From a virus: a DNA stretch of 28,167 bases. Shown here one piece after another: positions 1-28,167 of the stretch. Both the position numbers and the translations under genes were made by a program. Position 1 is the stretch's first letter. Each line of letters begins with the position of its first letter. The stretch spans positions 1-28,167 of the IMG/VR virus record IMGVR_UViG_3300022934_000129; one strand, given 5' to 3'. The notes below the pieces were generated by a model that ran no database searches, was not told the DNA's origin, and saw nothing but the letters and a program-made list of their open reading frames with translations.

Positions 1-3000
1 CTCGATGCCACCCTCTACGTTTCCGAACGCTTCGGGGATGGCGCGGAACATATCGAAGTACTCGGTCAGGGCCGTGTCGATGGCATCGGCGTTGTCCTTC
101 CCGAACCTCTTGAGCAGGACGGAGCGGATAGATGCGTCACGCAAACCCAGCTCCCGACCACGGGCCACGAGGTCAGCGATGGTGGCCGGCTCAGCCATGG
201 CTTCCACCACCACCTTCTGTTCTGCGGCGCGGCCTTCAAAGTCCTTGCCCGTGTATGGGCGCTCATCGGCATTGTAGATTTCGATGATGCGCTCCTCCAG
301 CTCGCGGGCCCGCTGCTCGGCTTCGTATTCAATCCTGTCTTGAATGTCTTCCGACCTCTGCTTGCGGTAAGCCTCAAAGATTCTGAAGAGCCTACCATTA
401 CGAGTAACGTAGCGACTACCATTACTGGCACGACCGAGACCGAAGCCCTCTTTGGCCAACATCTTTCCAAACTGGATGATGTTTTCTGTCGGGGCATCAT
501 TGGGCATGAAGCCCTTCTCGTTCACGTTGTATCTGACGGCAGCGTCATGCAGTGGTTCGCTTATCCTTTGCTCCGCTCCACTCTTCCTAGGGACGGCGTT
601 AACGATAGACTCATTGAGCTTCGGGATGTTGAACACAACAGCCTCGCGCATGGGCGTCATCACGCCACCGACGTAGTATCCGTCAAAGCCTGCGCTCATG
701 AATAGGACTGATAACGCACGAACTCCACCCCCGTCTGGAGGCAGGTATCCATTTGCGATACGTATCGCTCGTTCCGAGTTGGTGACGTCCAACTGAGCGA
801 TATCAAGCACTGCGGCACCGAGAGTCATAAGGCCGATTTGACGACGGTTGTACATCCTTATCAGCTCGATAGACGTCTCCATCGGAGTGTCAGAGTTCTC
901 CTCCGCGTCATTAACGGCATCGTAAAACTCCTTTAGGTAACGCTCTTCAAGGGACTTTACGTCCTCCGCACGCATCCTAGGCTCGTCCCTCGTCATCTCC
1001 TCGGCTGCCATGCGCAGGAGGCCCTCGACATCAATCTTGGTGCCGTCCTCCTCACTCAGCTCGAACATGTTCAGGTTCGACTTATCTACGTACACATCGT
1101 AAGACCCGTAGTCTCGCGCCTTCGTGGCATCGTCGGTGAAGTAGAACCCGTATCCCAGCCTAGCCCTTGAGCCACCCCGTATGTACGCAGGACTGAACGC
1201 AGCAAAAGCGGCGTTAGCCCCGTGCATAAGGAGGCCCTGTGCTTGCGCTTCCTTCAGTGTCGAGGGGAGTTTGGTGTTCTCTGCCTCGTTCTCGGATACG
1301 CGTTGCTCCGCTGCCCCGGGCTTCACATCGTAAATGACCGTGCCGTAGGTGGAGTTGTCCATGTCGCTACCGGGCGTAGCGTACACGCCATCGTAGCCAA
1401 GGACTTTCATCACCACCGTGGACCGTGAGTCTACGTTACCCGGCTCATTGTACATCCGCTTGGCGTCCGACCTGAGCTTCGTCCGTCGAGACTGCACCTC
1501 ACTGTTCCTTCGAATCTGCTCCTGAAGCACCTCATCGGAGGCGTCTATGTCAAGCTGTTCTTCAGCGTAGAACTCATCATACCGGCCCAAAGCCATGATG
1601 ACACGAAAGAAGTCCGATTCACTAAACTCGTCCTTTTCTCTACCATAGGTAGTATTGACATCCCTTAGCGCGTCATGCAGCTTCATGCTTGCCGGAGCGA
1701 GGTTGTAGTCTCGGATGTCTACGGCAGTAACTTCCCGGTCGTCATACTCCTCCGCCTGCTTTCTGTCTCCAAAGAAGTACGCACCGGTACCGAAGTGTCC
1801 CGTGCTTCGGCCGCCGGACATCATGCCTCGCGGCTCAGCCTTGGAGTCTACAGCCCCGGACCGATAGACAATGGTCGGACCCTCGGTGTCTACACTGACG
1901 CGTTGCTCAGCAGCCCCGGGCTTCACATCGTAGATGACCGTGCCGTAGGTGTAGTTGTCCAGCTCAGTACCAACAGCATTGACCCCCTCGTATCCAAGGG
2001 CTTTCATCACCGATGTAGACGGGCTGTCCACATTCCCCGGCTCATTGTACAAGCGAGTAGCCTCAGCCGCAATACGCCGTGCCGTGCTCTCATCAAGGAG
2101 CTGGTCCTTGTAAATCCGCAGGGCATCGTTCATGTAGTAGAAGTCCCTAAAGGACGGCCCTTGCTCTACGGCTACCTGTGCATACTGTATCTCTTTAGGA
2201 GCAATCGTATGTGGACGACCCTCTCTATTGGCCTTCATGGCACGCTTGTTTACTTCCTGTAGTGCTGCATGAAGGAAGTAACTAGCTGGCGCAAGCCTGT
2301 AATCCGTTATGTCCAGCTCGGTAACTGGCCTGTTAGTCCGCTCGGCATTAGATTCCGCCGCGCTCTTATCTCCGAAGAAGTAAAAGCCTGTACCGAAGTG
2401 ACCCGTGCTACGACCGGACAACGCCTCACTTCTGGGCTCTACCTTATTGACTAGGTCTCCGGCACGATAGACGCGTTGCTCAGCAGCTTGCGCACCTCTT
2501 TGCTCAGCGGCGCGGCCTTCGGCAGCCGGTTCACCCACTCGGGCAGCGGCGTCTCCCACGTCTCTTCCGGCGCCTCGCCGTACAGAAAGAACTTCGCGTC
2601 CTCTTGATTCGGCTTGAGCTTCAATGCCTTCGAGTAAGTCAGATAGCTGCGCTTCAATTCCTCTGCTTGTTGCCCACCCGGGGTTTTCGCTTGGGTTCTC
2701 GGCGATGATTCGTCTTGTCCTTTCATATGGCGTTAGTGTTTCGTCGTTGAGCAACCGCTTCAGCAGTTCAACATTGGCTTTAATTTCAGATGCAGTACGG
2801 TTCTTGTTGTTGATGCCCGTGCGCTGTGCCTCCCAAGTGATGGATTGCATCTCGCGTGGCAGTATTCCAGCGATTTCTGCGGCATTGATGTACGCTTCTT
2901 TGATGAGCGCATACTCTATACTGCGCCCACCCTTGAACACACCAAAGCCACCAGCATCATTGGCGGACATAGGAATGCCCAGCGCCACCGAAGCAGCGTG

Positions 3001-6000
3001 AGTATCGGCGGTGACATATGGACTCGTAGAGTTGGGGTCTACGATATTGTTGTAGAAGTTCCGGACCTTGTTTCCCCCGCCCAATTGCTCTCGGATATTT
3101 TCTATCGAGGGGTTGCGGTACATATCCATAGCCTTGGCTATCTCTACCGGAGAGCTCCAACGTATCGGGGTGCTATCGAAACCAATGAAGTCGCCGTCGG
3201 GCGTAGTCATCAGCACCTTACCGGGATACATGGCTTGGTCGATGGCACGCAAGAGGTTGGTCTGCACAGTTACTGGTACCCCTTGAGCCTCCATCTCGTT
3301 GAGCGTCATGCCCTCATACTGAGCAAACTCTGCGGCAAGTTGCTTGCCCCACTTGCTTGGCCCCTTGCGGTCCATATTCAGGGCCAGTGCCTTGTCGAAC
3401 ACCTCCCTTGAGAACGGCGTGTCCGAGTGGTTTTCCAAGACCTCGAACGTGCGCTCAGCAACAGCGATGTTATTGAACCAATCGTTCTGTGGGCTAAGGG
3501 CAGCAAGGACTCCGGCTGCCTCCTCTACAGTAACACCATAGATTTCCGCCATGCGGTTCGCTACCCTGTTGGCTCCTACGTACCACTCCTTCGATGCTGC
3601 CACAAACTCTGGAGTCAGAGTGTCGTAGACGGCGAGGACGTTCTGCGTCATCACCTCCACCGCCTCGGCGAGGATTTCGTTGGTGGTCTCCTTGACGCGC
3701 TCTAGCAGCTTCGCCCTCTTCGCCTTGGCTTTATTGCCGTCTCCCTTTACGGCAGCAACGGCATTGCTCCTGCGATTCAGGAGCGACAGCAGCCTCTTGT
3801 TCTCATACGGCAGCTCGATGGTGTACTTAACGCCATCCTTGGTGTACACGACTTTGCCTGACGCCAGCCGCCTAGCGGTACCCACGGCAGCAGAAACGCG
3901 AGACGTGATGGTCCCATCGATATCGTCAAAGCGGAAATCGTCCTCAAGGAATGCGTCCCTTTTTTCAGTGGCATCAATTCTTACCGTGGGGCTAATCTGC
4001 CCAGCCTTGACTGGCTCATTGCCTTCAATATCAATACCTGTCCCATCGGTCTTGATGTCCACCCGCTGCTCTGCGGCGCGGGTCGGCTCCTGCCCCGGCT
4101 CAATGATGGCGCGGTTGAGCTTGTCGAAGTTCCAGATGGCACTGATGATTCCATACCCCGTCTCATCCATGTTGACCGCACGACCGAAGTCGGCACCGTC
4201 AAAACCAAAAGCCTCTTGAATGAGCGCCGCCACCTGAGCCTGCTGAGGGATGTCGTAGGTGATGACATCGGGTGTGGTGGACCTGTTGGCAAGCTCGCGA
4301 GGTACCATCTTGACATCTCCGAATACCGCCTCAGCGGAACCCTCGATAAGCACATTAGCCCATGCAGCACCGGCCTTCAGCTCTGCCAAGCTTTGAAGGA
4401 CGATGGCCTTTTCAGGGAAGTACACCAACTCACCGGTCTCATCGAGTTCCTCTAGCTCCATCTTCGCGAAGTCGCGCAGCTTCTTGGCTTGCTCCTCGGT
4501 AATGCGAGTATCGCCATCAAGGAGGTTCAACTGATTCAGGTCAATCAGCGTTACGCGGTCTCCATACCTACGGAACACAGAGTTGCTTTGACCCGCCGAG
4601 GTGGTGTAGAAACCGTATCCATAGATGGTACGCTTGAGTTTCTCTGGCAACACCTTCGTGATATCTACGTCTCCGAAGTGGAAGGCCACACCTTGTTTGG
4701 CCATGGACTCCATCTGCTCGTCGGAGAAGTCGTCAACCTTCTGCTCGGCAGCACCGAGGTTCTCTTCAGTCTGTTGGCGGTCGGTCGTTAACGACCGTAG
4801 TGCTTCGGTCTCACGAGCCGTAACGGTTTCGCCACGAGATACCTGACCGGCGAGGCGCTCAAGCAACGAGATGATTTGCTTATCGCGGGCCGTAAGGTCA
4901 GGAGAGAGCGTGAGCTCAACGCCAAGGAGTTTACCAAGGCGCTCGAGGAACCGAGCGATAACGCTCTTGCCCTTCCTGTCCAGCGTGGGGTATGCCGCAG
5001 CCAGCTCACCAAAGAACTCCGCCACATACTCCTCGTTCATCTGCCCCGCATCGTACAGTTGCTGGTACTTGTCCAGCTTGGCAGCCAAAGGCTTGTCCGC
5101 CGGGATGACCTTCTTCAGGGTGGTGACGAACTCACCCATCAGCTCCTGTATCTGCGCACTGTCGATAGTGTTGCGCAGGATAGCGTGGAACGTTTCGTGT
5201 GCTACGGTAGTCTCCGAAGCCAGAGGCGCGAAGATGTGTATGGTCTTGTCGTCCGTACCGATGAATCCAGCAGACCTCTCTCCGGTCAGTCCGTTCTCCT
5301 GTGCAGCCTGTTGGTACGAAGCCTTGTCGTTGTGGATGATGATGTTGGCATCGGGGAAGTTCTTCGCCAAAGCCTTCTTGGCATTGGAGGCCAAACGCTT
5401 CAAACGCTTCAGGGGGATACGCCCCTGCACCTCGGGCTCGCCGAGCACCTCTACTTCGGCAGCCTCTTGGTCGAGAGTCTCAAGCCTCTTCTGGTCCGCC
5501 TCGATATCCTCCTTGTTGTCCTCAAGGAAAGCTTGTTCCACCTCGTTTAGCTCTACCTCATCGTTGAGCTTCTCTGCAATGGACTCAAGGATGACAGCCT
5601 TTCGGTCGGGGTCTAGCGTCCCTTGCTCTTCCGCTTGGAGGTCTTCTTGGGTGGCTTCCCGTACTTGTTCGTCCACTGGCGGGCTAACTCCGGGTTGTTC
5701 GCCCACAGGTACCTCCGCTGCTTCTCGCTTTTGAATGGCATTTCTCCTAGTATCTAGTTCTTGTTTCGTTTGTGGGTCTCCATAGACCTTAGCCTTCTTC
5801 AGTTGCTTCGGCGTAGCCTCTTGAATCTGAGCAAGAAAATCCTCACGCGTTACACTCTTTCCGTTAAACTTGTATGAGGCCGGTATATCCGCACCAAGAC
5901 CCTCGAGGTTGACCCTCTTTTCAGGTAACGCGCTGTTCTCCGCGATGTACGCAATCTCCTCATTGATTTCCGAGATGCGCTTTCCGAACACCTGCTTAGC

Positions 6001-8862
6001 GTTAGGGCCTCGGGACTCAAGGGTTTCTTTAGCCTGAAGCAATTCCATCAACCTACCAACAACACGCCCCTTGGTTCCGGGTCGGGCACCGGGCCGACGA
6101 CCCAAGAGTTCATTAGCGTCACGGCGAAGACCTGTGTTCTTACGGATGGCATTGGCTTGCTCAGGGGTGAGCTGACCAAGCGTTTCCATTTTATTGGCCC
6201 ACTCTACGATACGCTCGTTAGATACGTTCTCCTGTGCCAACCCCTCAGGAGTCATGAGCCTGACACCCAAATCAAAGTTGGACTCCCCTAACACCTGCTT
6301 GGCGTAGCCAACGGCACCAAATGCAGCACCCATGCTCATGCCCATGCCGACAGCACCAATGGCTTCCGCCATAATTTCCTTGAAGTTCTGTGTCGAACCG
6401 GTGTAGTCTCCGACAACACCAAGAGCAATACGCTCACCCAAAGCCTCTGTCGCGGGCTCCACTACAAGACCAGTGCCTATGCCACGAGCCATGCGCTCTC
6501 CTCTGGTGGCCAACCTAGCCGAACCCGATACGGCCTTACCAATAAAGTAGTTGGACAAAATGCCGGTAAGCATAATGGGTACACCACGCTTCCACCCACG
6601 GTCCGAAGCTTCTGCCCACATTTCCTCGTCGTTTAGCGCCTTGAGGGCAGAGTTCGGGTCAGCCCAGTCGTAGCCACGGCTCTCGCCAGCCTCAAGGGTA
6701 GCGTTGCCCAACTCCAAAGCCAACTCAGATACAGGCATGCCAACCGCAGTTATACCAGCTACTGCGCCGCCAAGGAGACCAGTAAATCCCCCACCCAGAA
6801 CACCCACTGGGCCTCCAGCTAAACCATAAGCTCCACCCAGAGCAACCCCGGCAGGAAGTACGCGCCCCCAAATAGGCACGAGCTGCGACAACGATTCAGC
6901 CGTAATCGCGGCTGTGTACATGGCTGGATTACTAGCGATAGAGTTGAGATACGAGTCGGTAGTCCCAGTCATATTAGCCCGAGAGACGATACGCCCACGG
7001 CGCTTGTCCTGACTGTCCATGATGGCAGACACTTCGCGCATAGCCTGCTCCTCAGCACCATCGTCGCCGAAGACGTCGTAATAACCAAACTGCATAAGGA
7101 GAAGCTTGGACATAGCATTGCCGCGCTTCAAACCATTACTCCACGCTACACTTACCTCTTCCCATCCATCGACATACTCTTCCGTTACACCCTTGTCGTA
7201 CTGCTTGTCGTAGTACGTCATGGCCTTCTCGTATCCGAGGGCGGCGGCCTGTCTCTGCGCGGCAGCGTCACCATACTGCCGATACATGTTAATCATATCG
7301 GTCAGCTCCTGCTGACTCTTGGGCTCGTAGTCGACCAAGTCCTCCAACCGTACACCAAACTGAGAGATGGACTGCACCTGTAAGCGATTCTGCATCGCTT
7401 TGGCCTCGTTATTAATTGTCGCGGCTTCAGTTTTTAATTCGTCGTACTTCTTTCCCAGAGCAACGTCGCGGTCCTCCTTGAACCTGAGCAAAACATTGTC
7501 TGAATCAAACTGCCCCTCCAGCGTGGATAGCTCCGCCTCCTTCTCCGCCCGCATGGCTTCGATATCATCACGGACCAGATTGCCGTCAATGAAATACTTG
7601 TCGTAGTCAGCCGGAATTTCTTTCTCATACCTAGTTCCGGGAATCAACTCCTCCAAGAACCTGTATTCTGCGCGGCGAGCATCGACCTCATCCAAGAATG
7701 CCATATCGGCATCGTAGTCTCGTCCCAACTCTTGCGCTCGTCGCTGAAACTCAACATCTTCTGGAACAATATTCTTCCACTTTCCGTCAGCAAACGCAGC
7801 GGCTTCAACGGCAGTATCAAAGAAGAACAACTCACCACGCTTCTCCGCTTCATTCATGGCTTGTGCGCCAAGGCCCAACTCCATCCAATCATTGGGATTG
7901 GTGGATGGTGTTATGTCGGGGTCCTTGGGAAACAGGGTGGGGTATGCGATATACTTACCATCCATTTCGCCCCAAGCCATCTTTACCGTCGATACACCAC
8001 TAGAGTCGAGCCTAGCTACAGGACGCAACTCTTGCAGTCGAAGGGATTTTTCTACGAAACTCTCATCGGTTTCTCCTACTACGCGGGCATTCGTCCTAAC
8101 AAAGTCATCGAGCTTGTCAGCCTCAGATTGGGCTATGTTGCCCCCCTCGTCCAAAGCAAGGCGCATCTCTACGGGTTTTCCCCCGGGCCCCTTTGCTATG
8201 GCTTTAACTATGCGTGCCCCTTGACGCGTAGTAGCCATAGGCACCTTCTCCTCACTGAACTCGATGCCATATGGCCCATATGTCTCAGACAACTGAGATA
8301 CCACACCGGGCACATTGCCCTCTGGAATAGTTACCGGAGCTAAGTCAGCCGTGACCAGCTCGGCCATCTCCTGCGCTGTCGCTTTCCTCTGGGCCTGTAT
8401 GTCGGCCTCACGGATATCCCTTTCGGTCCTAATAGAATCGCGCTTGGCTTGTTCGGCAGGGGTGTAGTACTCACTAGTTGTTGGAGGAACATAGTTATAT
8501 GCCGCGCCTTGGAAGCCAATGTCCCTTATTACTGGAGTCCTGCGTACTCGCTCGGCCTCAAGGTCTCTAGACGCAAGTCGTTGCTCCGATGAACCAACGT
8601 CCGATACAGATTCCGTAACGGCGGGCTCCTCTTTTTTTTTTACGTTGCTGAAGAACTCGTCGAGGCTCAGGTTATTGACGAGCTCAGGGTCGGCATCAGC
8701 CAAAATCGCATAGGCTTTGGCCGCATACTCAGGGTTCTGAAGGTTCTCAAAAAAGCCCTCGACACTGACGTTCTCAGAGAAGGCCGGGTCGTACTTGGAA
8801 AGGATATCATACGCCGATGCAGAGTAGTCTGTCGGGCTAATACGAGTGGGGTCTTGAGCCAT
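1..8862 (-). CDS. Giant polyvalent protein: metallopeptidase, four ART domains (3' end outside window)
   Basis: The frame is open from the ATG at 8862 (TAA in frame just upstream) to base 1, at least 2954 residues, with the C-terminus outside the window. In order: duplicated N-terminal motif (17-74); a domain with DGKYIAYPTLF (301-311) and FADGKWK (357-363); coiled coil (~385-470); Gly-rich hydrophobic region (660-854); zincin with HETFH (1222-1226); ART1 (~1385-1594); HhH-GPD-like domain (~1735-2035); ART2 (2131-2314); ART3 (2330-2514); ART4 (2543-2755); helical region with unknown fold (2766-2954). Motif A-A-E-Q-R/K recurs at the borders. This matches the architecture called polyvalent proteins (Iyer, Aravind and colleagues): multi-enzyme proteins delivered with the DNA to counter the host. 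The gene directly follows two ejection-type genes. No RNA-polymerase DxDGD motif is visible in this part. Confidence 0.85.
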   Translation of the reverse strand, partial: MAQDPTRISPTDYSASAYDILSKYDPAFSENVSVEGFFENLQNPEYAAKAYAILADADPELVNNLSLDEFFSNVKKKEEPAVTESVSDVGSSEQRLASRDLEAERVRRTPVIRDIGFQGAAYNYVPPTTSEYYTPAEQAKRDSIRTERDIREADIQAQRKATAQEMAELVTADLAPVTIPEGNVPGVVSQLSETYGPYGIEFSEEKVPMATTRQGARIVKAIAKGPGGKPVEMRLALDEGGNIAQSEADKLDDFVRTNARVVGETDESFVEKSLRLQELRPVARLDSSGVSTVKMAWGEMDGKYIAYPTLFPKDPDITPSTNPNDWMELGLGAQAMNEAEKRGELFFFDTAVEAAAFADGKWKNIVPEDVEFQRRAQELGRDYDADMAFLDEVDARRAEYRFLEELIPGTRYEKEIPADYDKYFIDGNLVRDDIEAMRAEKEAELSTLEGQFDSDNVLLRFKEDRDVALGKKYDELKTEAATINNEAKAMQNRLQVQSISQFGVRLEDLVDYEPKSQQELTDMINMYRQYGDAAAQRQAAALGYEKAMTYYDKQYDKGVTEEYVDGWEEVSVAWSNGLKRGNAMSKLLLMQFGYYDVFGDDGAEEQAMREVSAIMDSQDKRRGRIVSRANMTGTTDSYLNSIASNPAMYTAAITAESLSQLVPIWGRVLPAGVALGGAYGLAGGPVGVLGGGFTGLLGGAVAGITAVGMPVSELALELGNATLEAGESRGYDWADPNSALKALNDEEMWAEASDRGWKRGVPIMLTGILSNYFIGKAVSGSARLATRGERMARGIGTGLVVEPATEALGERIALGVVGDYTGSTQNFKEIMAEAIGAVGMGMSMGAAFGAVGYAKQVLGESNFDLGVRLMTPEGLAQENVSNERIVEWANKMETLGQLTPEQANAIRKNTGLRRDANELLGRRPGARPGTKGRVVGRLMELLQAKETLESRGPNAKQVFGKRISEINEEIAYIAENSALPEKRVNLEGLGADIPASYKFNGKSVTREDFLAQIQEATPKQLKKAKVYGDPQTKQELDTRRNAIQKREAAEVPVGEQPGVSPPVDEQVREATQEDLQAEEQGTLDPDRKAVILESIAEKLNDEVELNEVEQAFLEDNKEDIEADQKRLETLDQEAAEVEVLGEPEVQGRIPLKRLKRLASNAKKALAKNFPDANIIIHNDKASYQQAAQENGLTGERSAGFIGTDDKTIHIFAPLASETTVAHETFHAILRNTIDSAQIQELMGEFVTTLKKVIPADKPLAAKLDKYQQLYDAGQMNEEYVAEFFGELAAAYPTLDRKGKSVIARFLERLGKLLGVELTLSPDLTARDKQIISLLERLAGQVSRGETVTARETEALRSLTTDRQQTEENLGAAEQKVDDFSDEQMESMAKQGVAFHFGDVDITKVLPEKLKRTIYGYGFYTTSAGQSNSVFRRYGDRVTLIDLNQLNLLDGDTRITEEQAKKLRDFAKMELEELDETGELVYFPEKAIVLQSLAELKAGAAWANVLIEGSAEAVFGDVKMVPRELANRSTTPDVITYDIPQQAQVAALIQEAFGFDGADFGRAVNMDETGYGIISAIWNFDKLNRAIIEPGQEPTRAAEQRVDIKTDGTGIDIEGNEPVKAGQISPTVRIDATEKRDAFLEDDFRFDDIDGTITSRVSAAVGTARRLASGKVVYTKDGVKYTIELPYENKRLLSLLNRRSNAVAAVKGDGNKAKAKRAKLLERVKETTNEILAEAVEVMTQNVLAVYDTLTPEFVAASKEWYVGANRVANRMAEIYGVTVEEAAGVLAALSPQNDWFNNIAVAERTFEVLENHSDTPFSREVFDKALALNMDRKGPSKWGKQLAAEFAQYEGMTLNEMEAQGVPVTVQTNLLRAIDQAMYPGKVLMTTPDGDFIGFDSTPIRWSSPVEIAKAMDMYRNPSIENIREQLGGGNKVRNFYNNIVDPNSTSPYVTADTHAASVALGIPMSANDAGGFGVFKGGRSIEYALIKEAYINAAEIAGILPREMQSITWEAQRTGINNKNRTASEIKANVELLKRLLNDETLTPYERTRRIIAENPSENPGWATSRGIEAQLSDLLEGIEAQAESRGREVLSVRRGAGRDVGDAAARVGEPAAEGRAAEQRGAQAAEQRVYRAGDLVNKVEPRSEALSGRSTGHFGTGFYFFGDKSAAESNAERTNRPVTELDITDYRLAPASYFLHAALQEVNKRAMKANREGRPHTIAPKEIQYAQVAVEQGPSFRDFYYMNDALRIYKDQLLDESTARRIAAEATRLYNEPGNVDSPSTSVMKALGYEGVNAVGTELDNYTYGTVIYDVKPGAAEQRVSVDTEGPTIVYRSGAVDSKAEPRGMMSGGRSTGHFGTGAYFFGDRKQAEEYDDREVTAVDIRDYNLAPASMKLHDALRDVNTTYGREKDEFSESDFFRVIMALGRYDEFYAEEQLDIDASDEVLQEQIRRNSEVQSRRTKLRSDAKRMYNEPGNVDSRSTVVMKVLGYDGVYATPGSDMDNSTYGTVIYDVKPGAAEQRVSENEAENTKLPSTLKEAQAQGLLMHGANAAFAAFSPAYIRGGSRARLGYGFYFTDDATKARDYGSYDVYVDKSNLNMFELSEEDGTKIDVEGLLRMAAEEMTRDEPRMRAEDVKSLEERYLKEFYDAVNDAEENSDTPMETSIELIRMYNRRQIGLMTLGAAVLDIAQLDVTNSERAIRIANGYLPPDGGGVRALSVLFMSAGFDGYYVGGVMTPMREAVVFNIPKLNESIVNAVPRKSGAEQRISEPLHDAAVRYNVNEKGFMPNDAPTENIIQFGKMLAKEGFGLGRASNGSRYVTRNGRLFRIFEAYRKQRSEDIQDRIEYEAEQRARELEERIIEIYNADERPYTGKDFEGRAAEQKVVVEAMAEPATIADLVARGRELGLRDASIRSVLLKRFGKDNADAIDTALTEYFDMFRAIPEAFGNVEGGIE
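598..1236 (-). other. ART4: ADP-ribosyltransferase-like domain, H-Y type
   Basis: Residues ~2543-2755. GLLMHGANAAFAAFSPAYIR (H2547), then RLGYGFYFTDDATKARDYGS (Y2574), match the canonical phage polyvalent ART layout best of the four. The end is SAGFDGYYVGGV and EAVVFNIPKLN, where the Glu before the final strand is a candidate catalytic residue. Confidence 0.7.
1300..1360 (-). repeat. Direct repeat, copy 2 (end of ART3 and border motif)
   Basis: Partner of 1900-1960, with four mismatches over 61 bases. It encodes the last strand of ART3 (YGTVIYDVK, with the preceding residues) and the following P-G-A-A-E-Q-R border motif. Confidence 0.85.
1321..1875 (-). other. ART3: ADP-ribosyltransferase-like domain, second of the tandem pair
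   Basis: Residues ~2330-2514. VYRSG (R2334), GGRSTGHFGTGAYFFGD (H2356), LAPAS, LYNEPGNVDS-like (here MYNEPGNVDS), VMKVLGYDGV and YGTVIYDVK all repeat ART2 at an offset of 200-201 residues. The middle (about 2405-2465) has diverged strongly. Confidence 0.65.
1900..1960 (-). repeat. Direct repeat, copy 1 (end of ART2 and border motif)
   Basis: 61 bases encoding the end of ART2 and the A-A-E-Q-R motif. It matches 1300-1360 at 57 of 61 positions, exactly 600 bases apart. Conservation at DNA level shows a comparatively recent duplication or gene conversion of the ART unit. Confidence 0.85.
1921..2472 (-). other. ART2: ADP-ribosyltransferase-like domain, first of a tandem pair
   Basis: Residues ~2131-2314. 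It starts directly after an A-A-E-Q-R-V motif with VYRAG (R2133), continues with SGRSTGHFGTGFYFFGD (H2155) and ends with MKALGYEGV and YGTVIYDVK. YR plus ST in this order resembles R-S-E-type ARTs rather than the H-Y type of ART1 and ART4. No catalytic Glu is clearly identifiable. Confidence 0.65.
2758..3660 (-). other. Possible divergent HhH-GPD (DNA glycosylase-like) domain
   Basis: Residues ~1735-2035. AAGVLAALSPQNDWFNNIAV (1782-1801) resembles the LSAQTTDxxVN motif of endonuclease III-type enzymes. TADTHAASVALG (1951-1962, D1953) resembles the VDTHxxRVxxRLG motif carrying the catalytic Asp. The LPGVG hairpin is absent. KVRNFYNNIVDP and LPREMQSITWEAQR recall a phage family I know as DUF7178, from memory. 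Function is inference. Confidence 0.4.
4081..4710 (-). other. ART1: ADP-ribosyltransferase-like domain, H-Y type
   Basis: Residues ~1385-1594. The NAD-binding pattern is FHFG (H1395) followed by IYGYGFYTT (Y1419), like the LYHGT...GYGLYFT layout of phage ART domains. The last strands (AFGFDGADF, then GIISAIWNFDKLNR) fit the end of the fold. The acidic catalytic residue is not clear. The domain lies between two copies of the A-A-E-Q-R/K motif. Confidence 0.65.
4782..4797. repeat. 16-bp palindrome inside the giant gene, same core as 20984-20999
   Basis: The perfect palindrome cggtcgttaacgaccg is identical to the core of the 26-bp palindrome after the capsid gene. Here it lies in codons for LTTDR, shortly before the border motif at residue 1370. 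It lacks the flanking G/C arms, so a hairpin would be weaker. Confidence 0.8.
4927..5400 (-). other. Zincin metallopeptidase-like domain of the giant protein
   Basis: Residues ~1155-1312. The zinc-binding HExxH is HETFH (H1222, E1223, H1226) in TTVAHETFHAILRNTID. Downstream NEEYVAEFFGELAA supplies candidate third-ligand glutamates E1277, E1278 and E1282. The following helix RFLERLGKLLG is the usual end of phage polyvalent zincins. Substrate unknown; it may act on the protein's own linkers or on host proteins. Confidence 0.75.
6301..6885 (-). other. Gly-rich hydrophobic region of the giant protein
   Basis: Residues 660-854 hold three hydrophobic, glycine-rich blocks: around 663-712 (GGAYGLAGGPVGVLGGG), 760-776 (VPIMLTGILSNYFIG) and 834-853 (GAVGMGMSMGAAFGAVG). 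The middle carries EPATEALGERIAL, a pattern I remember before Gly-rich stretches in phage ejection and polyvalent proteins. A role in inserting into, or crossing, the host membrane is inferred. Confidence 0.6.
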
Positions 8863-8879
8863 CGTTTAAATATAAAACC

Positions 8880-10856
8880 TTATCCGCCGTACAGACTCTT
8901 TGCAGAACCAGCCACACCTGCTCCACTACTAGTTCGACGGGCGCCTTCTGCCAAGCCAAGGGCCTTGCGTATTTCTGAACTGTTGTATCCTTTAGCCCCC
9001 TCGTACATGAAGCCCATAATTTCTCCCTCTGTAAGCTGTACTCCGCGCTCCATGGCCGACGCCAAGGCATTGAAGAAACTGTCATACGCCTTTTGATAAG
9101 CGGGTAGAATTACGGGCACCTCCATCTGCCTTGGGAGATAGATACTGATGGCGGGGTAGTCGGCGTAATCACTGCTCTGCTGACCCGCGTTGACCACCAC
9201 CTCCTCATCGTGAGCACGGATATCAGCGTCAAGTATCTTGAGGTCGCTGAACATAGACTTCAATTCCGTTACAGCCTTGTTGGCCTCATCTATGTTTCCA
9301 GCCGCGCCCACTGTAGGCAGGGCCGCAACAACCTCCGAAACCTTCTTCTCCTCCCCGTCCGCTGTGGTCACCTTCTTCTCCAAGAAGTTGGGTATGGTCT
9401 GCTGTATAAACGCCGGGCGACCAGCCCGAACATCCGTCATAGCACCATAAGGCGTCTCGCCCGCTTGCGTCTGCCTTATCAGACTGCGAGCAATAGCTGG
9501 GTCTTCGTACAGGAAGTTGCCCTGCTCGGCCCATTGAATAGCATTAAACGGAGTTCCGTCGGCACTAGTACTTTCGATTGTAATGCTCTCTCCGTCTTTC
9601 AAGGTCAACACCACATCGCCAGAAGTAACGTCAGCACCGACCACCTCTTTGCCCTGATAGAACTGGCCTACGATAGCTTCCTCGGCCTTCTCCTTTTCAG
9701 CCGCAGTCTTCGCGTACTGCAACGCCATCCAGTTGTCCAGCGTGGTAGCAACGCGGTTTTGTAATTGTCCGTACTCAATTTCCGTCTTCGTAGGAGGCTT
9801 AGTAGACGGTGCAAACTCCGCTTGCGGAGTCTCAATCATATTGAACCGGCTCGTAAGGTCTGCCTCAACCCACTTGCGTGCCGCCTTCCGTTGGTCCTCA
9901 GCAATCTTAATCAGACCATCTACGTCAACGCCTTCGGGGAAAATCTCGCGCTTCTGGTCGTCAGTCATTCGGCTCACCTGCTCGACCACCTCAACCAAAG
10001 GAATCTGCGCTCCGCTGCCCGGCTGTCGCGGGTCGTCAATCATAAGGATATCGTTGGCTCCTGCGGTCTTGGGAGAGTATGACGTGCTGTATCCCGGGAG
10101 CTTCCTGTCCAACACCGTAGTCACAGACAGGTTGCCCTCCAGCGTGGCGTCGATGAGGTCGCCCTTTACCTTTTGGTATGCCGGGGAGGCAGTTACATCT
10201 TCGCGGGTCTTGACGCCGCCATCCATAATGGACTTGGTGTACTCCCCTAGCTGCTCCGCTTTTCCAGTCAAGTCGCCGTCGAGGTCGTAGGCGTTGAAGT
10301 ACTGCTTGGTGATGGCGTTCATCTGCGCGGCACTCATCGTCTCGCCAGTACTGTTGTTGTACATGGTGACGTTGCCGTACATATCCATCACGGGAGTAAT
10401 GTTGGCGAAGTTGCCGAAACCCTCTACCACAGCCATACCGTCAGACTCCGGGCTCAAAGACTCGCCGTTCTGCATGCGGGTCATCTTATCGGTGTACACA
10501 TCCTGATACCCCTTAACCATATCGTAGATGCCAGTCACGCTGGACTTCTGGTTCTCGATATAGTTCATGTACTCCGACGGCCTGATTTCGCCGGACTTGA
10601 GAAGCTTGTTCATGCGCAGGGTATCCTGCGTGGCTTGGTCTACGAGCTGCGAGGTAAAGAGGTTGGCGTTCTTATGCTGCCCCATCGGGGCCTCATTAAT
10701 CTTGGTCACCAACTCATCGGTGGCCTTGTCTATCTCCGCCCGCTTCTTGTCACGCTCCGTACCAATCCGAGCAATCTCATCGGAGAACTTCTTGCTGACG
10801 TCAGCCCAGTTGACTTGCGACGTGGCGTCGCGCTTGACATACTTGTAATACGTCAT
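8880..10856 (-). CDS. Large internal cargo/ejection protein
   Basis: The protein has 658 residues. The start TYYKYVKRDATSQVNWADVS resembles the conserved opening I remember for a cargo protein encoded after the nozzle gene in crAss-like and related Bacteroidota phages. The first ~120 residues are a helical, charged coiled coil. The remainder is mixed, without transmembrane segments or catalytic motifs that I can identify. The C-terminus (GEIMGFMYEGAKGYNSSEIR, then a Gly/Ser-rich tail ending SLYGG) suggests a small helical motif plus a flexible end. It shares ATGA with the preceding internal-protein gene, and 17 A/T-rich bases separate its stop from the giant gene. A role as capsid cargo ejected with DNA is inferred from position and resemblance. 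Confidence 0.6.
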   Translation of the reverse strand: MTYYKYVKRDATSQVNWADVSKKFSDEIARIGTERDKKRAEIDKATDELVTKINEAPMGQHKNANLFTSQLVDQATQDTLRMNKLLKSGEIRPSEYMNYIENQKSSVTGIYDMVKGYQDVYTDKMTRMQNGESLSPESDGMAVVEGFGNFANITPVMDMYGNVTMYNNSTGETMSAAQMNAITKQYFNAYDLDGDLTGKAEQLGEYTKSIMDGGVKTREDVTASPAYQKVKGDLIDATLEGNLSVTTVLDRKLPGYSTSYSPKTAGANDILMIDDPRQPGSGAQIPLVEVVEQVSRMTDDQKREIFPEGVDVDGLIKIAEDQRKAARKWVEADLTSRFNMIETPQAEFAPSTKPPTKTEIEYGQLQNRVATTLDNWMALQYAKTAAEKEKAEEAIVGQFYQGKEVVGADVTSGDVVLTLKDGESITIESTSADGTPFNAIQWAEQGNFLYEDPAIARSLIRQTQAGETPYGAMTDVRAGRPAFIQQTIPNFLEKKVTTADGEEKKVSEVVAALPTVGAAGNIDEANKAVTELKSMFSDLKILDADIRAHDEEVVVNAGQQSSDYADYPAISIYLPRQMEVPVILPAYQKAYDSFFNALASAMERGVQLTEGEIMGFMYEGAKGYNSSEIRKALGLAEGARRTSSGAGVAGSAKSLYGG

Positions 10857-21019: not shown

Positions 21020-22447
21020 TCACTCCTCGAAGAGGAAGAAGTTGTTGGCACCCATGGTGCAAACGGCACGCTCGGAAAGGAAGTGGACTTCCATGGCGTC
21101 GAGGTCGCTGGTAGCAGCGCCCCCGGCAGAGCCAGTAATCCACGTCTTGTACCGACGGTCCTCAGTCTCACTAGCGCGGTAGCGGACGTGCAGGAACGGG
21201 CGCTTGGCGTTCTTGCCGAGCACTTGGTCGTACACGGTAGTAGAACCAGCCGGAACCATCATACCATTGATGACGCCGTTGGTCAGTCCGCCACGCATGG
21301 TCGGGTCGTTCAAGTACTTCCAGTCAGACTTGTAGAAGTCGTAACCGCGACGGAAGCCCGTGAAGCCAAGGTTGAGAGCCATCTGCTCGTCGTTGTCGAA
21401 CAGGCCGAAGCTCGTACCGCCCGCACCGTAGCTGTTCTGTGCAGCCAGCATGTCGTCGATATCGAAGCCCATCTGACGATTCACGAACAAGACGTTCTCC
21501 TCGATGGCGCCCTGCTTATCCAGACGTCCGATAATGGTATCGAAGTTGTCGAGAGTAGAGGGGATGCCTGCGGACCACACGTTACCACGGTCGTTGATGA
21601 CGTAGAAGATACCTTCGGTACCCTTGTAGCCAGCAGCGAGGGCACCGCCAGTAGCTTCAGCCGGAACGGCCTCGAGCATAGCGGTCTCGAGGTAGTCGTC
21701 GAAGCGGAGACGGGTCTCGTGCTCGGACTTCAGGTACCACAGGTAGCCCGTGGCTCCGTTCTCGGTAGTCACCTCAACCCAGCCAATCTGAGCCATGTCG
21801 GAACCGTTGACGGCGTACTTGTCCTTCAAGATGATGGGGCTCGTCTCGAAGATTTCGGAGTCAGCCTCAAGGGACTCGGCCATGCCGTTAGTTCCTTTCG
21901 TGAACTCGGAACCGTAAATCATCACGGTACAAGCGACGCCAGCCGCGACAGCCTGACCGCCAGCCTCGTAGTAGGCAACGGTGAACTCGTTCGTGGCGTA
22001 GTTGACGCCGGTGACGATAGCCTTGTTGCTCAGGCCCGTAACGGGAGTGGTGTTGTCAGTGATGAACACCGTCTGACCCTCGCGGATAGCGATACCTCCC
22101 GTACCACCAGTGGTGACACTGCCGGTGGGAACGAGCAAGTCGTTGACCGTCCACGTAGCCGTGGGGTCGGTAGCGGCACCAGCGGATTCGCAATCGACGT
22201 ACTTGGTGTGGAGGCGCCCCTGCTCAACCCACTTGATGAGGTCGGAGTTGGACGGCATCTCGGCACCAACCATGCGCAGGAAGCCAGACACAGTCCGGTT
22301 GCCGTAACGCTCGAACTCCTTCTCGTAAGTATCGGGGAGATACTGATTCAAGAAGTCGAAGTTGGTGATGTAGTTTGTTTGAAGGGGAATCTGTTCCGCG
22401 CTGGGCTGAAGCTGATACCCCGGGGTGGCTTGCAATGAACCGGGCAT
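21020..22447 (-). CDS. Major capsid protein (crAss-like, HK97-fold family)
   Basis: Main shell protein of the icosahedral head. At 475 residues it is in the usual range for crAss-like capsid proteins. The C-terminal half contains stretches I strongly associate with that family: DWKYLNDPTMRGGLTNG, then VYDQVLGKNAKRPFLHVRYR, then TSDLDAMEVHFLSERA and a terminal NNFFLFEE. A Gly/Thr-rich beta segment around 100-180 looks like an insertion or surface domain. HK97 fold is inferred from the family; there is no obvious N-terminal delta domain or protease site. The leader before the ATG is A-rich (agaaaacagaaaac) without Shine-Dalgarno, as in Bacteroidota. The TGA stop is followed after 15 bases by a perfect 26-bp palindrome, which could tune or stabilise this presumably abundant transcript. 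Confidence 0.93.
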   Translation of the reverse strand: MPGSLQATPGYQLQPSAEQIPLQTNYITNFDFLNQYLPDTYEKEFERYGNRTVSGFLRMVGAEMPSNSDLIKWVEQGRLHTKYVDCESAGAATDPTATWTVNDLLVPTGSVTTGGTGGIAIREGQTVFITDNTTPVTGLSNKAIVTGVNYATNEFTVAYYEAGGQAVAAGVACTVMIYGSEFTKGTNGMAESLEADSEIFETSPIILKDKYAVNGSDMAQIGWVEVTTENGATGYLWYLKSEHETRLRFDDYLETAMLEAVPAEATGGALAAGYKGTEGIFYVINDRGNVWSAGIPSTLDNFDTIIGRLDKQGAIEENVLFVNRQMGFDIDDMLAAQNSYGAGGTSFGLFDNDEQMALNLGFTGFRRGYDFYKSDWKYLNDPTMRGGLTNGVINGMMVPAGSTTVYDQVLGKNAKRPFLHVRYRASETEDRRYKTWITGSAGGAATSDLDAMEVHFLSERAVCTMGANNFFLFEE

Positions 22448-23562: not shown

Positions 23563-25998
23563 TTATCTCGGACTAAATTCTGCCAAATCGAAGCCATCCA
23601 AGCTGTCTTCATTCGACTCAAAATTCATGGGCGGCAAGTTATTCTTCCGCTGGTCAATGAGCTTACTCTGCTCGGTATTTTGTTGGCTGATGCGTTGAGC
23701 CTTAGCCTTCTCGCGGTTGTCCTCGCGAGCCTGTAAGTTCTGCTCCTGCATGCCGTGTAGCTGCAAGTTGTATTGGAACTCACGTTCCATAAGCGTGGCC
23801 TTGAGCTGTGCCTCGGCTTGCATCTTCTCAATCTCAAATGCAATCTCAGCCTGCTTGACCTGCATCTTGCCCTGCGTCTCGGCCTGAATCTTCTGCATGG
23901 CTGCCTGTGCTGCCATCTCCTGTGACTGTAGGTTGGCCTGTTGCTGCATAGCCTGCTGCTGCATAGCCATCTTCTCCTCCCGCTCCTGCTTGGCGATACG
24001 CTTGACCTTGAGCAGTTGGTTGGCGAGCTTGAGGTTCTTAATCTCCCTGATGTCGATAGCGTCCTCGAGGTTGATATCGCCCTTGCTCAATGCCATTTGG
24101 ATATTGGCTTCGAGCTGCGCACGCTGCTCCTCGTCGGGGCTGACCTCAATGAAGATGCCGAAGTCGTAGATGTACAGGTCGTTAATCTCTCCAAGGATAC
24201 TGACGTTGTACTTACCAATCTGGTTTACAAACTCATCTTTGAAGTCGGCGTACTCGAGGATATCGCTAACGCGGTACGTCAAAGCCTCAGCCAAGGTGCG
24301 GAACATATACAGGCTGCCATCCAAGATGTGGCGGGTAGCCGTATTGCTGTTCGCCGCAGCCAGCTTCTGCAAGCCAACGAGACTATGCGGGTCGGGGGTG
24401 CTCCCGTCGCGGGCTTCGTTCAAGCCCGTTACGTCACGAATCATCTGCAAGTAGTGATTCATGTTGCCGATAAGCATCTGCGTCTTGGCGGCACCACTGT
24501 TGCTATTAAGCTCTTGGATGGGGACCTTGCCGTGATTGAACTCGCCGTCCTGAGTGAACGAACGTCCGATGACGCTACCCGTTTGGAAGTATAGCCGCAG
24601 GGCGTCCTCAGGGTTGTAGGCGTTGCCCGTACCGAGGTCGACCTCGTTGAGTCCGTCAGCGTCGATATACACCCCGTCCGGTACCGTCCTCGCGATGACC
24701 TGCTGGAGCTTGAGGTGCGTAATCTGGATGAGGTCCGCGAAAGGAACCATGCGGCGCACCAGAGACTCGATGACGCCCTTGTACATGCGCGGTGCCGTAG
24801 CCACATAGTTGGGCAGGGCGTGCTGACTGGCAGACTTCGGGCGGACCATATTGTGGGCCACCTCCCACTTGAGGAGGATATTGGTGCCCATGACCATGAC
24901 GCCGTCGTACCAGACGTCGATAGTCTTTTCCACCTTCTCGAAGTTGCCCTCCTCCATCATCTCCTCCGGCGGATTGAACTGGTCGTCCTTTTCAATCATC
25001 CGGGCTCCGTCGCCCTCGAGCTTCTTCTTCTTGTAGACAATCTTCTTGGTTGTCTTGTAGTTGAAGTACATCAGCGTGGCCACGTCACGATAGAACATAT
25101 CGTTCTCGTAGAACTGGGCTACGTTGTAGTAGTCGTACCAACTCTGGCTGTACTTGCTAATCTGCTCCAAGTCCTCGTTGGTGAGGCTCGGGTCAATCTT
25201 CATCAGCTCCGTGATGGGCAGCGTCTTAATCTCTCCCCAGTAAAAGCAGTCCTTGAACTGCGGGTCTTCGGTGTAGCTATACACCACGTTGGCGGGGTCG
25301 ACATACGAGACCTGAACGCCAGAGCCGGGGAGGAACTCGTGCTTAGCAACGCTGATGCCCAAGACCGTAAGGTCGTAGTCGAGGCGCTTACGCAGGTCGG
25401 TATAGTGGTTCTCCTCGAGGATAGTGTTGATGGCTTCCTCCTCAGCAATCTCAATAGCAGGCTTGTAGTTGAGCTGCATATACAGGCTCAGTTCCTCGTC
25501 ACTAGCCGGGAGGTCCTCCGGGTCCATAGTGAATGGGTCTACACCCGTCTTCTGCTGGATGATTTCGAGCACAGGCTTGGCCACCATCTGGCCCTCAATC
25601 ATATCCTGATACTTGCTGCGCTTGGCTTGCGATAGCGCGTCCTGAGCGTACGCCTTGACTTTGAAGAGTCGCTCGGACATACCGTTGACAACGATGTCAA
25701 CGAACTTGGGAAGGATAGGAACTGGCGTCCAGTCCAGATTCAAGTACGACAGGTCGCCGTCGATAGCGAGCTCGTTCTTGTACTTGGCAATATTCTGCTC
25801 GCCACGGGCGTAAAGGCGCAGGCGGTTGAAGTCGCGCCACTGGTTGTAGAATCGGCACTGGTTGCCATCCTTCTTAAACCACTCGTACTGGATGGCTTGA
25901 CCGACCATAAGGCCGTACTCGTCCGTCGCCTTCTCCGCATCAGAAACAAACTGACTGGGGAACCCGGCGGTGGAGATGTTTATCTTGACATCCTTCAT
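23563..25998 (-). CDS. Portal protein (crAss-like)
   Basis: Forms the dodecameric ring at one capsid vertex through which DNA enters and leaves, docking the terminase during packaging and the tail later. The protein has 811 residues. The N-terminal half carries segments I associate with crAss-like portals, including LYARGEQNIAKYKNELAIDG around 62-81 and LNLDWTPVPILPKFVDIVVN just after. The last ~170 residues are a Gln/Ala/Glu-rich coiled coil (many QQQAMQQQANLQSQEM-type runs), which could form the portal crown or barrel inside the head. The start codon lies immediately after the terminase stop. The TAA stop is followed by an A/T-rich 19-base gap before the next gene. Placement between terminase and capsid genes supports the call independently of sequence. 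Confidence 0.92.
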   Translation of the reverse strand: MKDVKINISTAGFPSQFVSDAEKATDEYGLMVGQAIQYEWFKKDGNQCRFYNQWRDFNRLRLYARGEQNIAKYKNELAIDGDLSYLNLDWTPVPILPKFVDIVVNGMSERLFKVKAYAQDALSQAKRSKYQDMIEGQMVAKPVLEIIQQKTGVDPFTMDPEDLPASDEELSLYMQLNYKPAIEIAEEEAINTILEENHYTDLRKRLDYDLTVLGISVAKHEFLPGSGVQVSYVDPANVVYSYTEDPQFKDCFYWGEIKTLPITELMKIDPSLTNEDLEQISKYSQSWYDYYNVAQFYENDMFYRDVATLMYFNYKTTKKIVYKKKKLEGDGARMIEKDDQFNPPEEMMEEGNFEKVEKTIDVWYDGVMVMGTNILLKWEVAHNMVRPKSASQHALPNYVATAPRMYKGVIESLVRRMVPFADLIQITHLKLQQVIARTVPDGVYIDADGLNEVDLGTGNAYNPEDALRLYFQTGSVIGRSFTQDGEFNHGKVPIQELNSNSGAAKTQMLIGNMNHYLQMIRDVTGLNEARDGSTPDPHSLVGLQKLAAANSNTATRHILDGSLYMFRTLAEALTYRVSDILEYADFKDEFVNQIGKYNVSILGEINDLYIYDFGIFIEVSPDEEQRAQLEANIQMALSKGDINLEDAIDIREIKNLKLANQLLKVKRIAKQEREEKMAMQQQAMQQQANLQSQEMAAQAAMQKIQAETQGKMQVKQAEIAFEIEKMQAEAQLKATLMEREFQYNLQLHGMQEQNLQAREDNREKAKAQRISQQNTEQSKLIDQRKNNLPPMNFESNEDSLDGFDLAEFSPR

Positions 25999-28167
25999 TT
26001 AGTCGAGAAGTTCACTCCTGAAACCACGGTTGTTATATCTCGGCAAGGTAATGCTAATTGAACTCTTCACCTGTTCAGGCATATACAGGTGCTTTTGGTT
26101 AGCCATAATAGCCAATCCACTACTAATGGTAGCGTCGAAAGCAGTACGGTTGCTGATGTCAAACCGGGCCCAATCCTCCAGCGTCCGAACGAATGGCATA
26201 GAGCCAATCTCTCCGTCCTCTACGATACCGACGTGCTTCTCGATATAGCTTTCGATAGCTGCGGCGTGGGCCTGCTTGACGTCCTCAGAACTGTTGGGTA
26301 TGCCACCCAGCTCGCGCTCCGTCTTTGAGAGCTTATTGAAGTTCTTGTCAGGACGGTTCATGCAGAAGCCTCGGTACCCACGGTTCTTGAAGTGGTACAG
26401 CAGCCTAGGCTTGTTGTTCTCAATAAGGATGGGCATGCCATAAAAGACGCACGCCATGAGTACCTCCTCAAAGAAAATCTCCGCCGTCTGCGGGCGGGCG
26501 ACATACTCCAAGAAAAACTCGTTGGTAGGCGCATCGTCCATATGGAACTTGGTCATTCCGTGCAGCGCCCCATTACTACCGCCGCCGCCAACAGTACCAC
26601 TAATGTCATAGGAATCGCATCCAAAAGAGCCAATATGTTCATTCCCCGGGTGTTTGATGCCCCTCTTATCTATCAACCTGTTTTGCATACCCTTGGGAGG
26701 GAACCAAGAGATGTTGAACCTTCCCCGCTTGTCGGGACTAAATACTACGCGAGTATCCTTGATTCCGTTCTCCCATTGGAACGAACCTCGTGTCAGATAG
26801 TGCTCTTTTACTAGGCTATCCGCGTAGTCTATCTGCTGGTAAATTTTGGTAAGATTGAACAGGCTCTGCTTGCTCTCGTCCCTAAAGGCGTGCGACTCGG
26901 TACGGGGGAACTGGCGGTAGAATTCGTTGAGCGCATCGGGGTCGTTCTTCAAGCTCTCTACCTCTGCGTCCCAGTAGTCGACAGCGCCGCTTTTAATCTT
27001 CATGCCATCGACACCCATCACGGGCTTCTCAGGGGCGTGGAAGACGGGATGACCAAACTCGTCGATGAAGCCTTCCATGTTGTACTCCATGGGGATGAAC
27101 AAGGAATACATGCCACTCTTGGTCTGGCCGTTGGCGTTGCGTGCGCGAGGGTCAGAGTCCTCGTAGAGCTTCTTGAAGTTGGAACCACCCTTGGCCAAGG
27201 CGTTCGACGTAGAACCCATGAGGCACTTGCCGATAATCTTGCTGCCCAAGCGCAAGCACGTCTTGGTTACCCTCCAGTTGTTGAGGATGTTGTTGGGCTT
27301 AATCCACTTTCCGCTTTCGTCGTGGACGAGGAGGAGGAGCTTCTCTCCGTCGTAGGAGTTGTCGTCGGTGTTCTTCCAGTCGATGGTCGTGTCAAGGCCG
27401 AGAATCTCTTCGTCCTCCACATCGTACATGTTCTTCTTCGTAATCTTTGAAGCAGGTACACGAAACGCCAGTTCCGTCTTCGGCTTGTCCATGCCGTCCT
27501 GTATAGGTTTGAAGAAGAATGGTAGGCGGTTGGCGATAGGAACCACCTTGTCGGTGAACATTTTCTTGGCGTCCGCACCCGTCTTGGAGAGTATCCCAAC
27601 TCGTGAATCCTTAGCTAGTGTACCGGTGTTTACGCACTCCGACGAACCCATAAACGAGAATCCCGAACGGCGAATCTTCAGGTATATCATACCAAAGCTT
27701 CGTGGGTCCGCCTTGCATGCTTCCCAGAAGATAAAGAATATCCTGTTGGCCTCACGGTAGTCGGGATACCCTACGTCGATACTTGTCCACTGCAAGTACA
27801 TGTAGTGGGCGCCAGTGATATACGTCGGCACGCCGTCGTTGCTGAACCAGTGCCCATCCTCGCGGCGGTCAAACTCCGACTCGATATAGTCCACCCACTG
27901 CGTCTTGAACGCCTTGGGCATATCGTTCCATTGGAAGATGCTTTGGATGCGCGAGAGCGGCTTAGGTAGCTCCTCACGAACCCACTTGTTGCCCTCCAGC
28001 TTCTTGGGCGCCAAAGGCAGCGCGATGACCAACCCGTTGATTTCTATGATGTCACCAATCTGTCCGGTCTTGGAGATGACGACCATGTCGTACTTCTCGT
28101 TATAACCGTAGAACCACGTCTTAGCACGGTTCTTATTGGATACTACCCCCTTCGATACATGCCCATG
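25999..28167 (-). CDS. terL: Terminase large subunit, crAss-like (5' end outside window)
   Basis: DNA-packaging motor: an ATPase that drives genome into the prohead through the portal, plus a nuclease that cuts concatemers. The frame has a Met at 28086, but stays open for 27 more codons to the window edge. Those codons (containing AKTWFYGYNEKYD) look conserved, so the true start probably lies outside. Counting from the 28086 Met, a degenerate Walker A-like segment KIRRSGFSFMGSSE is at 137-150 and a Walker B LLLLVHDES at 249-257. The C-terminal RNase H-like nuclease offers acidic residues D491 (GCDSYD), E556 (LIENN) and D651 (AFDATISS). The P-loop lacks the classical GKT/S; I remember crAss-like terminases having the same RRxGFSF style. 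The TAA stop abuts the portal ATG directly, suggesting coupled translation. Family assignment is confident; the catalytic residue choices are inference from motif spacing. Confidence 0.93.
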   Translation of the reverse strand, partial: HGHVSKGVVSNKNRAKTWFYGYNEKYDMVVISKTGQIGDIIEINGLVIALPLAPKKLEGNKWVREELPKPLSRIQSIFQWNDMPKAFKTQWVDYIESEFDRREDGHWFSNDGVPTYITGAHYMYLQWTSIDVGYPDYREANRIFFIFWEACKADPRSFGMIYLKIRRSGFSFMGSSECVNTGTLAKDSRVGILSKTGADAKKMFTDKVVPIANRLPFFFKPIQDGMDKPKTELAFRVPASKITKKNMYDVEDEEILGLDTTIDWKNTDDNSYDGEKLLLLVHDESGKWIKPNNILNNWRVTKTCLRLGSKIIGKCLMGSTSNALAKGGSNFKKLYEDSDPRARNANGQTKSGMYSLFIPMEYNMEGFIDEFGHPVFHAPEKPVMGVDGMKIKSGAVDYWDAEVESLKNDPDALNEFYRQFPRTESHAFRDESKQSLFNLTKIYQQIDYADSLVKEHYLTRGSFQWENGIKDTRVVFSPDKRGRFNISWFPPKGMQNRLIDKRGIKHPGNEHIGSFGCDSYDISGTVGGGGSNGALHGMTKFHMDDAPTNEFFLEYVARPQTAEIFFEEVLMACVFYGMPILIENNKPRLLYHFKNRGYRGFCMNRPDKNFNKLSKTERELGGIPNSSEDVKQAHAAAIESYIEKHVGIVEDGEIGSMPFVRTLEDWARFDISNRTAFDATISSGLAIMANQKHLYMPEQVKSSISITLPRYNNRGFRSELLD

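Follow-up and report, generated by a model that had tools for sequence, protein, structure and literature searches.

Phage-specific peptides repeated at the module borders of a giant polyvalent phage protein as probable polyprotein processing sites

The prohead protease gp21 of phage T4 processes ejection proteins at a short consensus. In phage SPN3US the substrates of gp245 are head and ejection proteins, which it cuts after AXE (PMC10052503). Proteolysis has also been proposed for the polyvalent proteins, which were defined by Iyer et al. in 2017 and in which zincins are the commonest domain (PMC5512222); the embedded zincins were suggested to release domains autoproteolytically, and the arrangement was likened to the polyproteins of RNA viruses (Iyer et al. 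2017, PMC5512222). Two cases described in that work are the packaged anti-host proteins DdrB and DarA of phage P1, which are proteolytically processed and of which DdrB carries a C-terminal zincin, and the virion RNA polymerase of phage N4, which is packaged uncut despite its zincin (PMC5512222). The N4 case counts against reading the peptides described below as processing sites. Zincin cutting of polyvalent proteins has been predicted since 2017, and we found no earlier report of a cleavage site; a term search of the text of PMC5512222 gave no linker or site motif.

The DNA analysed here (the window) is a virus record of 28,167 bases whose major genes all lie on the minus strand, among them the following:

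25999-28086, minus strand: terminase
23563-25998, minus strand: portal
21020-22447, minus strand: capsid-position protein
8880-10856, minus strand: 658 aa protein, adjoining the giant gene on its upstream side
8862 to 1, minus strand: gene for the giant polyvalent (multi-effector) protein, 2954 aa, truncated at the 3' side where the contig ends

Further virion proteins, including one of 1553 aa, belong to the same block, in which the giant ORF comes last. The ORF has no stop before the contig ends, so the protein is incomplete and further residues are missing; a complete homologue, L044, is 4248 aa long. For its portal, terminase and capsid-position protein the window shows 71-79% identity to MW202828 (L012 among our records), a circular complete genome named 'Podoviridae sp.', and 45-49% identity to Flavobacterium phage elemo. 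The giant gene has the marks of a polyvalent protein: it adjoins virion late genes, the terminase, the portal and further virion families lying with it in one block on that strand, and it joins at least two unrelated predicted effector domains in one chain (DUF7178, a zincin and several ART-like modules). A related giant protein, L007, matches ART-PolyVal above its cut-off and also a GNAT model.

Nine sites of the form [AS][ASG]EQ[RK]-[aliphatic] are found in the giant ORF, and all nine copies listed in an earlier note made from the letters alone (Gln 94, 1374, 1599, 2121, 2129, 2320, 2520, 2765 and 2882) are present with the residues given there; a tenth near-match, EAEQRA (Q2850), falls outside the pattern. 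The strict form [AS][ASG]EQ[RK][VILTG] occurs 8 times against a shuffled mean of 0.0165 (maximum 1 in 2000 shuffles), and it occurs 0 times in the 13 other window proteins (6372 aa). The peptide PSAEQIPL, a partial match, stands near the N-terminus of the capsid-position protein (21020-22447, minus strand). When codons for the same amino acid were compared between copies (n=158 pairs), 63 were identical and 62.0 were expected from codon usage; agreement at this chance level means that the peptide is constrained and the DNA is not, as the note had concluded from its differing codons. The modules and sites are laid out along the protein as follows (all minus strand; the fold names ART1 to ART4 and GPD-like are the labels of the earlier note):

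8593..8862, minus: N-terminal repeat module, aa 1-90, matching L044 aa 2-95 at 86% identity
8575..8592, minus: punctuation site SSEQRL (Q94); L044 counterpart SSEQRI
5449..8574, minus: long conserved core, aa 97-1138, site-free, 70% identical to L044 and 34% to L045
4765..5448, minus: metallopeptidase domain of zincin type, aa 1139-1366, with HETFH (aa 1222-1226); HExxH + EE invariant in homologues (n=64)
4735..4752, minus: punctuation site AAEQKV (Q1374), past the zincin
4078..4734, minus: module ART1, aa 1377-1595, whose homologues, likewise running from motif to motif, are in L044, L082 (two copies) and L045
4060..4077, minus: punctuation site AAEQRV (Q1599)
2512..4059, minus: DUF7178 module, aa 1602-2117 (the GPD-like domain of the earlier note)
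2494..2511, minus: punctuation site AAEQRG (Q2121)
2470..2487, minus: punctuation site AAEQRV (Q2129)
1915..2469, minus: module ART2, aa 2132-2316, 48% identical to ART3 and 45% to an L087 module
1897..1914, minus: punctuation site AAEQRV (Q2320)
1315..1896, minus: module ART3, aa 2323-2516
1297..1314, minus: punctuation site AAEQRV (Q2520)
580..1296, minus: module ART4, aa 2523-2761, with weak Pfam ART-PolyVal/DUF3990 matches only (~2545-2613)
562..579, minus: punctuation site GAEQRI (Q2765)
229..561, minus: small module, aa 2768-2878, its end 82% identical to an L044 module
211..228, minus: punctuation site AAEQKV (Q2882)
1..210, minus: beginning of the C-terminal conserved region, aa 2885-2954, truncated where the contig ends, 90% identical to L044

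Pfam places DUF7178 at aa 1732-1809 (E 2.7e-34). From Q94 to Q1374, a span of 1280 aa that comprises the core and the zincin, the protein is free of sites, as are the last 1214 aa of L044. The counterparts of the Q2882 site are APEQRV in L044, AREQKD in L006 and SSQQKL in L045.

The sites were said in the earlier note to fall at domain borders, and the scan of homologues that it proposed bears this out: 33 of 41 pooled sites from six proteins lie no more than 7 aa from a BLAST homology breakpoint, where 10.3 are expected (0 of 20000 rotations reach the observed value), and in the window itself the figure is 7/9. A previous border statistic, in which breakpoints were counted per site, was non-significant in 5/6 proteins (p 0.04-0.39) because a few borders gather most of the breakpoints, and it was replaced by presence or absence of a breakpoint within 7 aa. 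One repeated junction motif is thus common to the module borders of one protein, as in a polyprotein. A structure model of an ART-linker-ART segment reached a mean pLDDT of only 47, and with so poor a model disorder at the sites has weak support. Judged from sequence comparison, the sites are real, peptide-level and interdomain, and their positions are retained in relatives.

Relatives with the same motif show that what lies between the sites is exchangeable. (Some records are duplicates of one phage: L044 = L039, L006 = L093, L082 = L043 and L045 = L007.) L044 has nine sites, seven of them AAEQR, and a cargo unlike the window's; beyond ART1 lie a second module of zincin-like type, one that L087 also has, an ART, a module resembling GNAT, the YHVT module and a small module. 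The second zincin-like domain (L044 aa 1690-1925, E 6.9e-29 to the zincin profile) is exchangeable and stands between punctuation sites. In L006 and L082 the N-terminal half is unrelated to that of the window, yet AAEQR is found at the joints, and L082 has two ART1-type modules in succession. Motif-to-motif segments align across phages despite their differing order; across L044, L082, L045 and L087, module order and content vary and the sites stay. Between the window and L006 the DNA of the DUF7178 module is mostly 90-100% identical exactly between site 1599 and sites 2121/2129 and less so on either side, from which it follows that modules move as motif-bounded units. This sharp boundary is what would be expected if the sites were recombination seams, short homologies that promote module shuffling, but such seams would not hold a peptide in place while synonymous positions drift, and the chance-level codon agreement means that the DNA of the copies is not kept alike; we regard this explanation as very improbable. 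A DNA-level repeat or recombination scar as the main cause was ruled out by the codon test, although module exchange with breakpoints at the sites is real.

Other relatives carry a different peptide at the same joints. In L045 the homologous positions have SSQQ, as in RSSQQRAMETDG compared with the window's RAAEQRVDIKTDG, and SSQQKL stands where the window has AAEQKV. APRQQ and variants of it are found in L087 and L127, PRKQ in L115, AREQ[RK] (three times, plus PREQR) in L125, IRMQA/LRFQA/IRLQA (class IRMQAP or IRxQA) in L130-L132 and ESSS[RK] in L186 and L188; these classes were drawn post hoc from repeated k-mers and take their support from the shuffle and codon, border and 4-mer counts. One and the same module end, YGTV[IVL]YD, is followed by AAEQRV in the window and L044, AREQRV in L125, APRQQ in L127, VATRQQ in L087 and IRMQA in L130-L132. 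The YHVT module is preceded by AAEQRV in L044 and by APRQQL in L087, the APNGKPSNL module by SSQQR in L045 and by APRQQ in L087, and the start of ART1 carries AAEQ, ASQQ, AREQ or ESSS depending on the phage. The 4-mers that follow the YGTVIYD module recur 109 times elsewhere in the same protein, where the proteins of other phages give an expectation of 18.1. The junction motif therefore changes in concert between lineages, and the punctuation is a property of the phage rather than of the module.

In L188 (ORF at L188:5609-13153) and L186 the giant ORFs carry LK[GDE]SSS or ESSS[RK] peptides as a separate punctuation class: the SSS sites of L188 follow the N-terminal repeat and the zincin and flank the ART, and the ESSS-type peptides of L186 follow the zincin and flank the ART module. 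The giant ORFs of L161 and L159 repeat RYSxK(E) or NPDIRYSxK behind several unlike modules, which may be another instance of this phenomenon in a separate group of phages. Eight copies of a TDLGQLQSI-containing repeat were seen in the giant ORF of L072, and a PNSVTS repeat in another ORF of L165. A single universal consensus was tried and rejected: across the whole set of giants [PILAVS]RxQ shows no more than a modest excess (283 occurrences, with 223.7 in shuffled and 214 in reversed sequences), so there is no family-wide motif. Rules based on R-x-Q and on an aliphatic P1' were dropped, as ESSS and IRxQAP do not fit them, and no P1 or P1' rule is common to all variants.

Punctuation of this kind is confined to certain lineages, and no phage in culture was found to have it in repeated form. 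None was found to be repeated in polyvalent proteins with an FGDWE module (Pseudoalteromonas Y7, Shewanella Y11, Bacteroides BF1-TP2 and three crAss-like phages) or in the giant proteins of MW202828 and elemo, and it is therefore not a general feature. Many zincin-bearing giants have no repeated motif, and elemo has a zincin and no punctuation; MW202828, a close relative in backbone, has neither this zincin family nor the motif. Its giant protein has two HEFGH sequences (aa 1615 and 2500) of another metallopeptidase-like type, and Ala/Pro-rich linkers.

Are these peptides, then, cut, or do they serve as linkers of a standard type? The earlier note had left processing sites and hinge linkers side by side. 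As hinges they would space the modules or allow unfolding for ejection; they do sit in linkers, and other giants in the family have Pro/Lys or Ala/Pro linkers in their stead (PTKKVAP in L009, AAPA in L012). For a hinge, however, composition would suffice, and here each phage keeps to its own sequence, so that a given joint bears unlike peptides in different phages, which makes this explanation improbable. With positions constant and the peptide switched as a set, specifically read sites are favoured over generic hinges; neither module ancestry nor a generic linker accounts for phage-specific punctuation, and the matched switching suggests a cognate trans-acting reader. That part of the note's claim which concerns sites as opposed to hinges is thus strengthened, and cleavage itself is the part that we infer: the AAEQR/KV peptides are probably polyprotein processing sites.

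A reader need not cut. The peptides could be docking or packaging tags, bound by a partner (a scaffold, a portal or ejection protein, or a chaperone) that loads or extrudes the giant protein, and this would account equally well for phage-specific, jointly changing peptides. In favour of such tags, no other shared virion protein tracks motif class as well as the 658 aa protein encoded next to the giant gene: its identity is 48-76% in AAEQ phages, 29% in L125 (AREQ) and 26% in L045 (SSQQ), and for several of the others L045 is no more distant than the AAEQ phages. The gene of this 658 aa protein may merely be linked to the giant gene, however, and the location of sites at borders, one of them right past the zincin, and the doubling of sites 8 aa apart (Q2121/Q2129) fit cutting better, so we consider docking unlikely. 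No peptidase family was recognised in the 658 aa protein; between the window and L006 its N-terminal ~340 aa are nearly identical and its C-terminal half is divergent.

If the sites are processed, the embedded zincin is the leading candidate enzyme, to which we would give about half of the confidence that we place in processing itself. By sequence it is catalytically intact: H100, E101, H104, E155 and E156 of its profile are invariant among 64 homologues, that is, the HExxH and the downstream Glu of zincins are both there. Its structure model is fairly confident (mean pLDDT 81.6); a fold search against the PDB gave nothing at E below 0.001, the sequence profile gave only a weak IrrE match (E 0.04), and a scan of genome contigs with the zincin gave no matches. 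The zincin was found inside the punctuated ORF in 9/9 punctuated contigs tested (AAEQ, AREQ, SSQQ, APRQQ, PRKQ and ESSS phages), several of which had come from the zincin search itself, L125, L127 and L188 having been reached by way of ART modules; the IRMQ phages have a zincin variant, HEIIH/HEIVH. The covariation with the junction motif that would mark a polyprotein and its enzyme was not seen among the zincins compared: the window's zincin is 33% identical to that of L006, which has the same motif (AAEQRV), and 49% identical to that of L045, which has different motifs. A zincin tree accordingly fails as proof of the reader. The suggestion in the earlier note that the protein's own peptidase is the processing enzyme thus gains an intact zincin in every punctuated contig tested and lacks the expected agreement between zincin identity and motif.

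That independence would suit a reader other than the zincin, either a protease of the host or a phage enzyme so far unrecognised, possibly of prohead type, and AAE would fit the AXE rule of SPN3US gp245 (PMC10052503). But SSQQ, APRQQ and ESSS relatives do not fit AXE, and no S78, S14, S49 or Trypsin_2 family was found in the 10-11 related records searched per family, several of which are fragments; the search for an S77 prohead protease, run without a positive control on records of which several are fragments, also found none. We rate such an enzyme as possible though doubtful, a weight that overlaps with those above because it is a sub-case of processing.

Taken through to a mechanism, the giant gene would encode a polyvalent polyprotein, probably virion-associated, made of an N-terminal repeat module, a zincin-bearing core, exchangeable modules of presumed effector role (several ART-like ones and DUF7178; in relatives also GNAT and others) and a long C-terminal part that is conserved. 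Its linkers would have the AAEQR/KV peptides as processing sites, and a phage- or host-specific protease would recognise the six-residue site and free the modules, which may separate ahead of packaging, inside the capsid or once injected. Since the sites of a phage would all have to fit one enzyme, they would change together between phages, and a captured module would come under the local peptide, giving the lineage code AAEQ[RK], AREQ[RK], SSQQ[RK], APRQQ, PRKQ, IRxQA and ESSS[RK]. We hold as evenly balanced the wider proposition that true polyproteins exist among tailed phages, as multi-effector chains packaged in the virion in which every joint is cut by a cognate protease at a lineage-specific code that evolves in concert and defines pluggable modules.

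The feature is real and striking, belongs to a known protein class in which it appears to be undescribed, and is best explained by cleavage. No description of such sites or of a lineage-specific punctuation code was found in the open-access literature. The earlier note had said that it knew of no description of such a motif; the motif itself does seem to be new, but cutting by embedded zincins and the comparison with RNA-virus polyproteins were published in 2017 (PMC5512222), so that part is not new. The peptides provide exact, testable candidate sites in several phages and could mark module borders in unannotated giant phage proteins; if cleavage holds, they would also point to a group of phage proteases that are site-specific and differ in the sequences they recognise.

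How does this locus compare with the systems outlined at the start? Like the polyvalent proteins of PMC5512222, the giant protein is large, combines zincin, ART and GNAT domains, lies beside virion genes and is of a kind thought to be packaged and injected; processing was predicted there, whereas here lineage-specific peptides mark the joints. The Elemovirus homologue KNV11_gp18 (NC_055853), annotated as a structural protein, has a homologous zincin (30% identity) and the same end position in the virion gene block, and differs in that no repeated punctuation peptide was found in it. DdrB and DarA of P1 are alike, by description, as packaged anti-host proteins that are proteolytically processed, with a zincin in DdrB; they are set apart, again by description, by one packaged fragment, no repeated-site series being described in PMC5512222. 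SPN3US gp245 and T4 gp21 share processing at a short consensus, but they are separate enzymes that mainly remove propeptides, and no such family was found in the related records here. With RNA-virus polyproteins the giant protein shares one chain, several enzymes, an embedded protease and matching junction peptides; there is no homology, and the chain here is that of a dsDNA tailed phage and is built of interchangeable modules.
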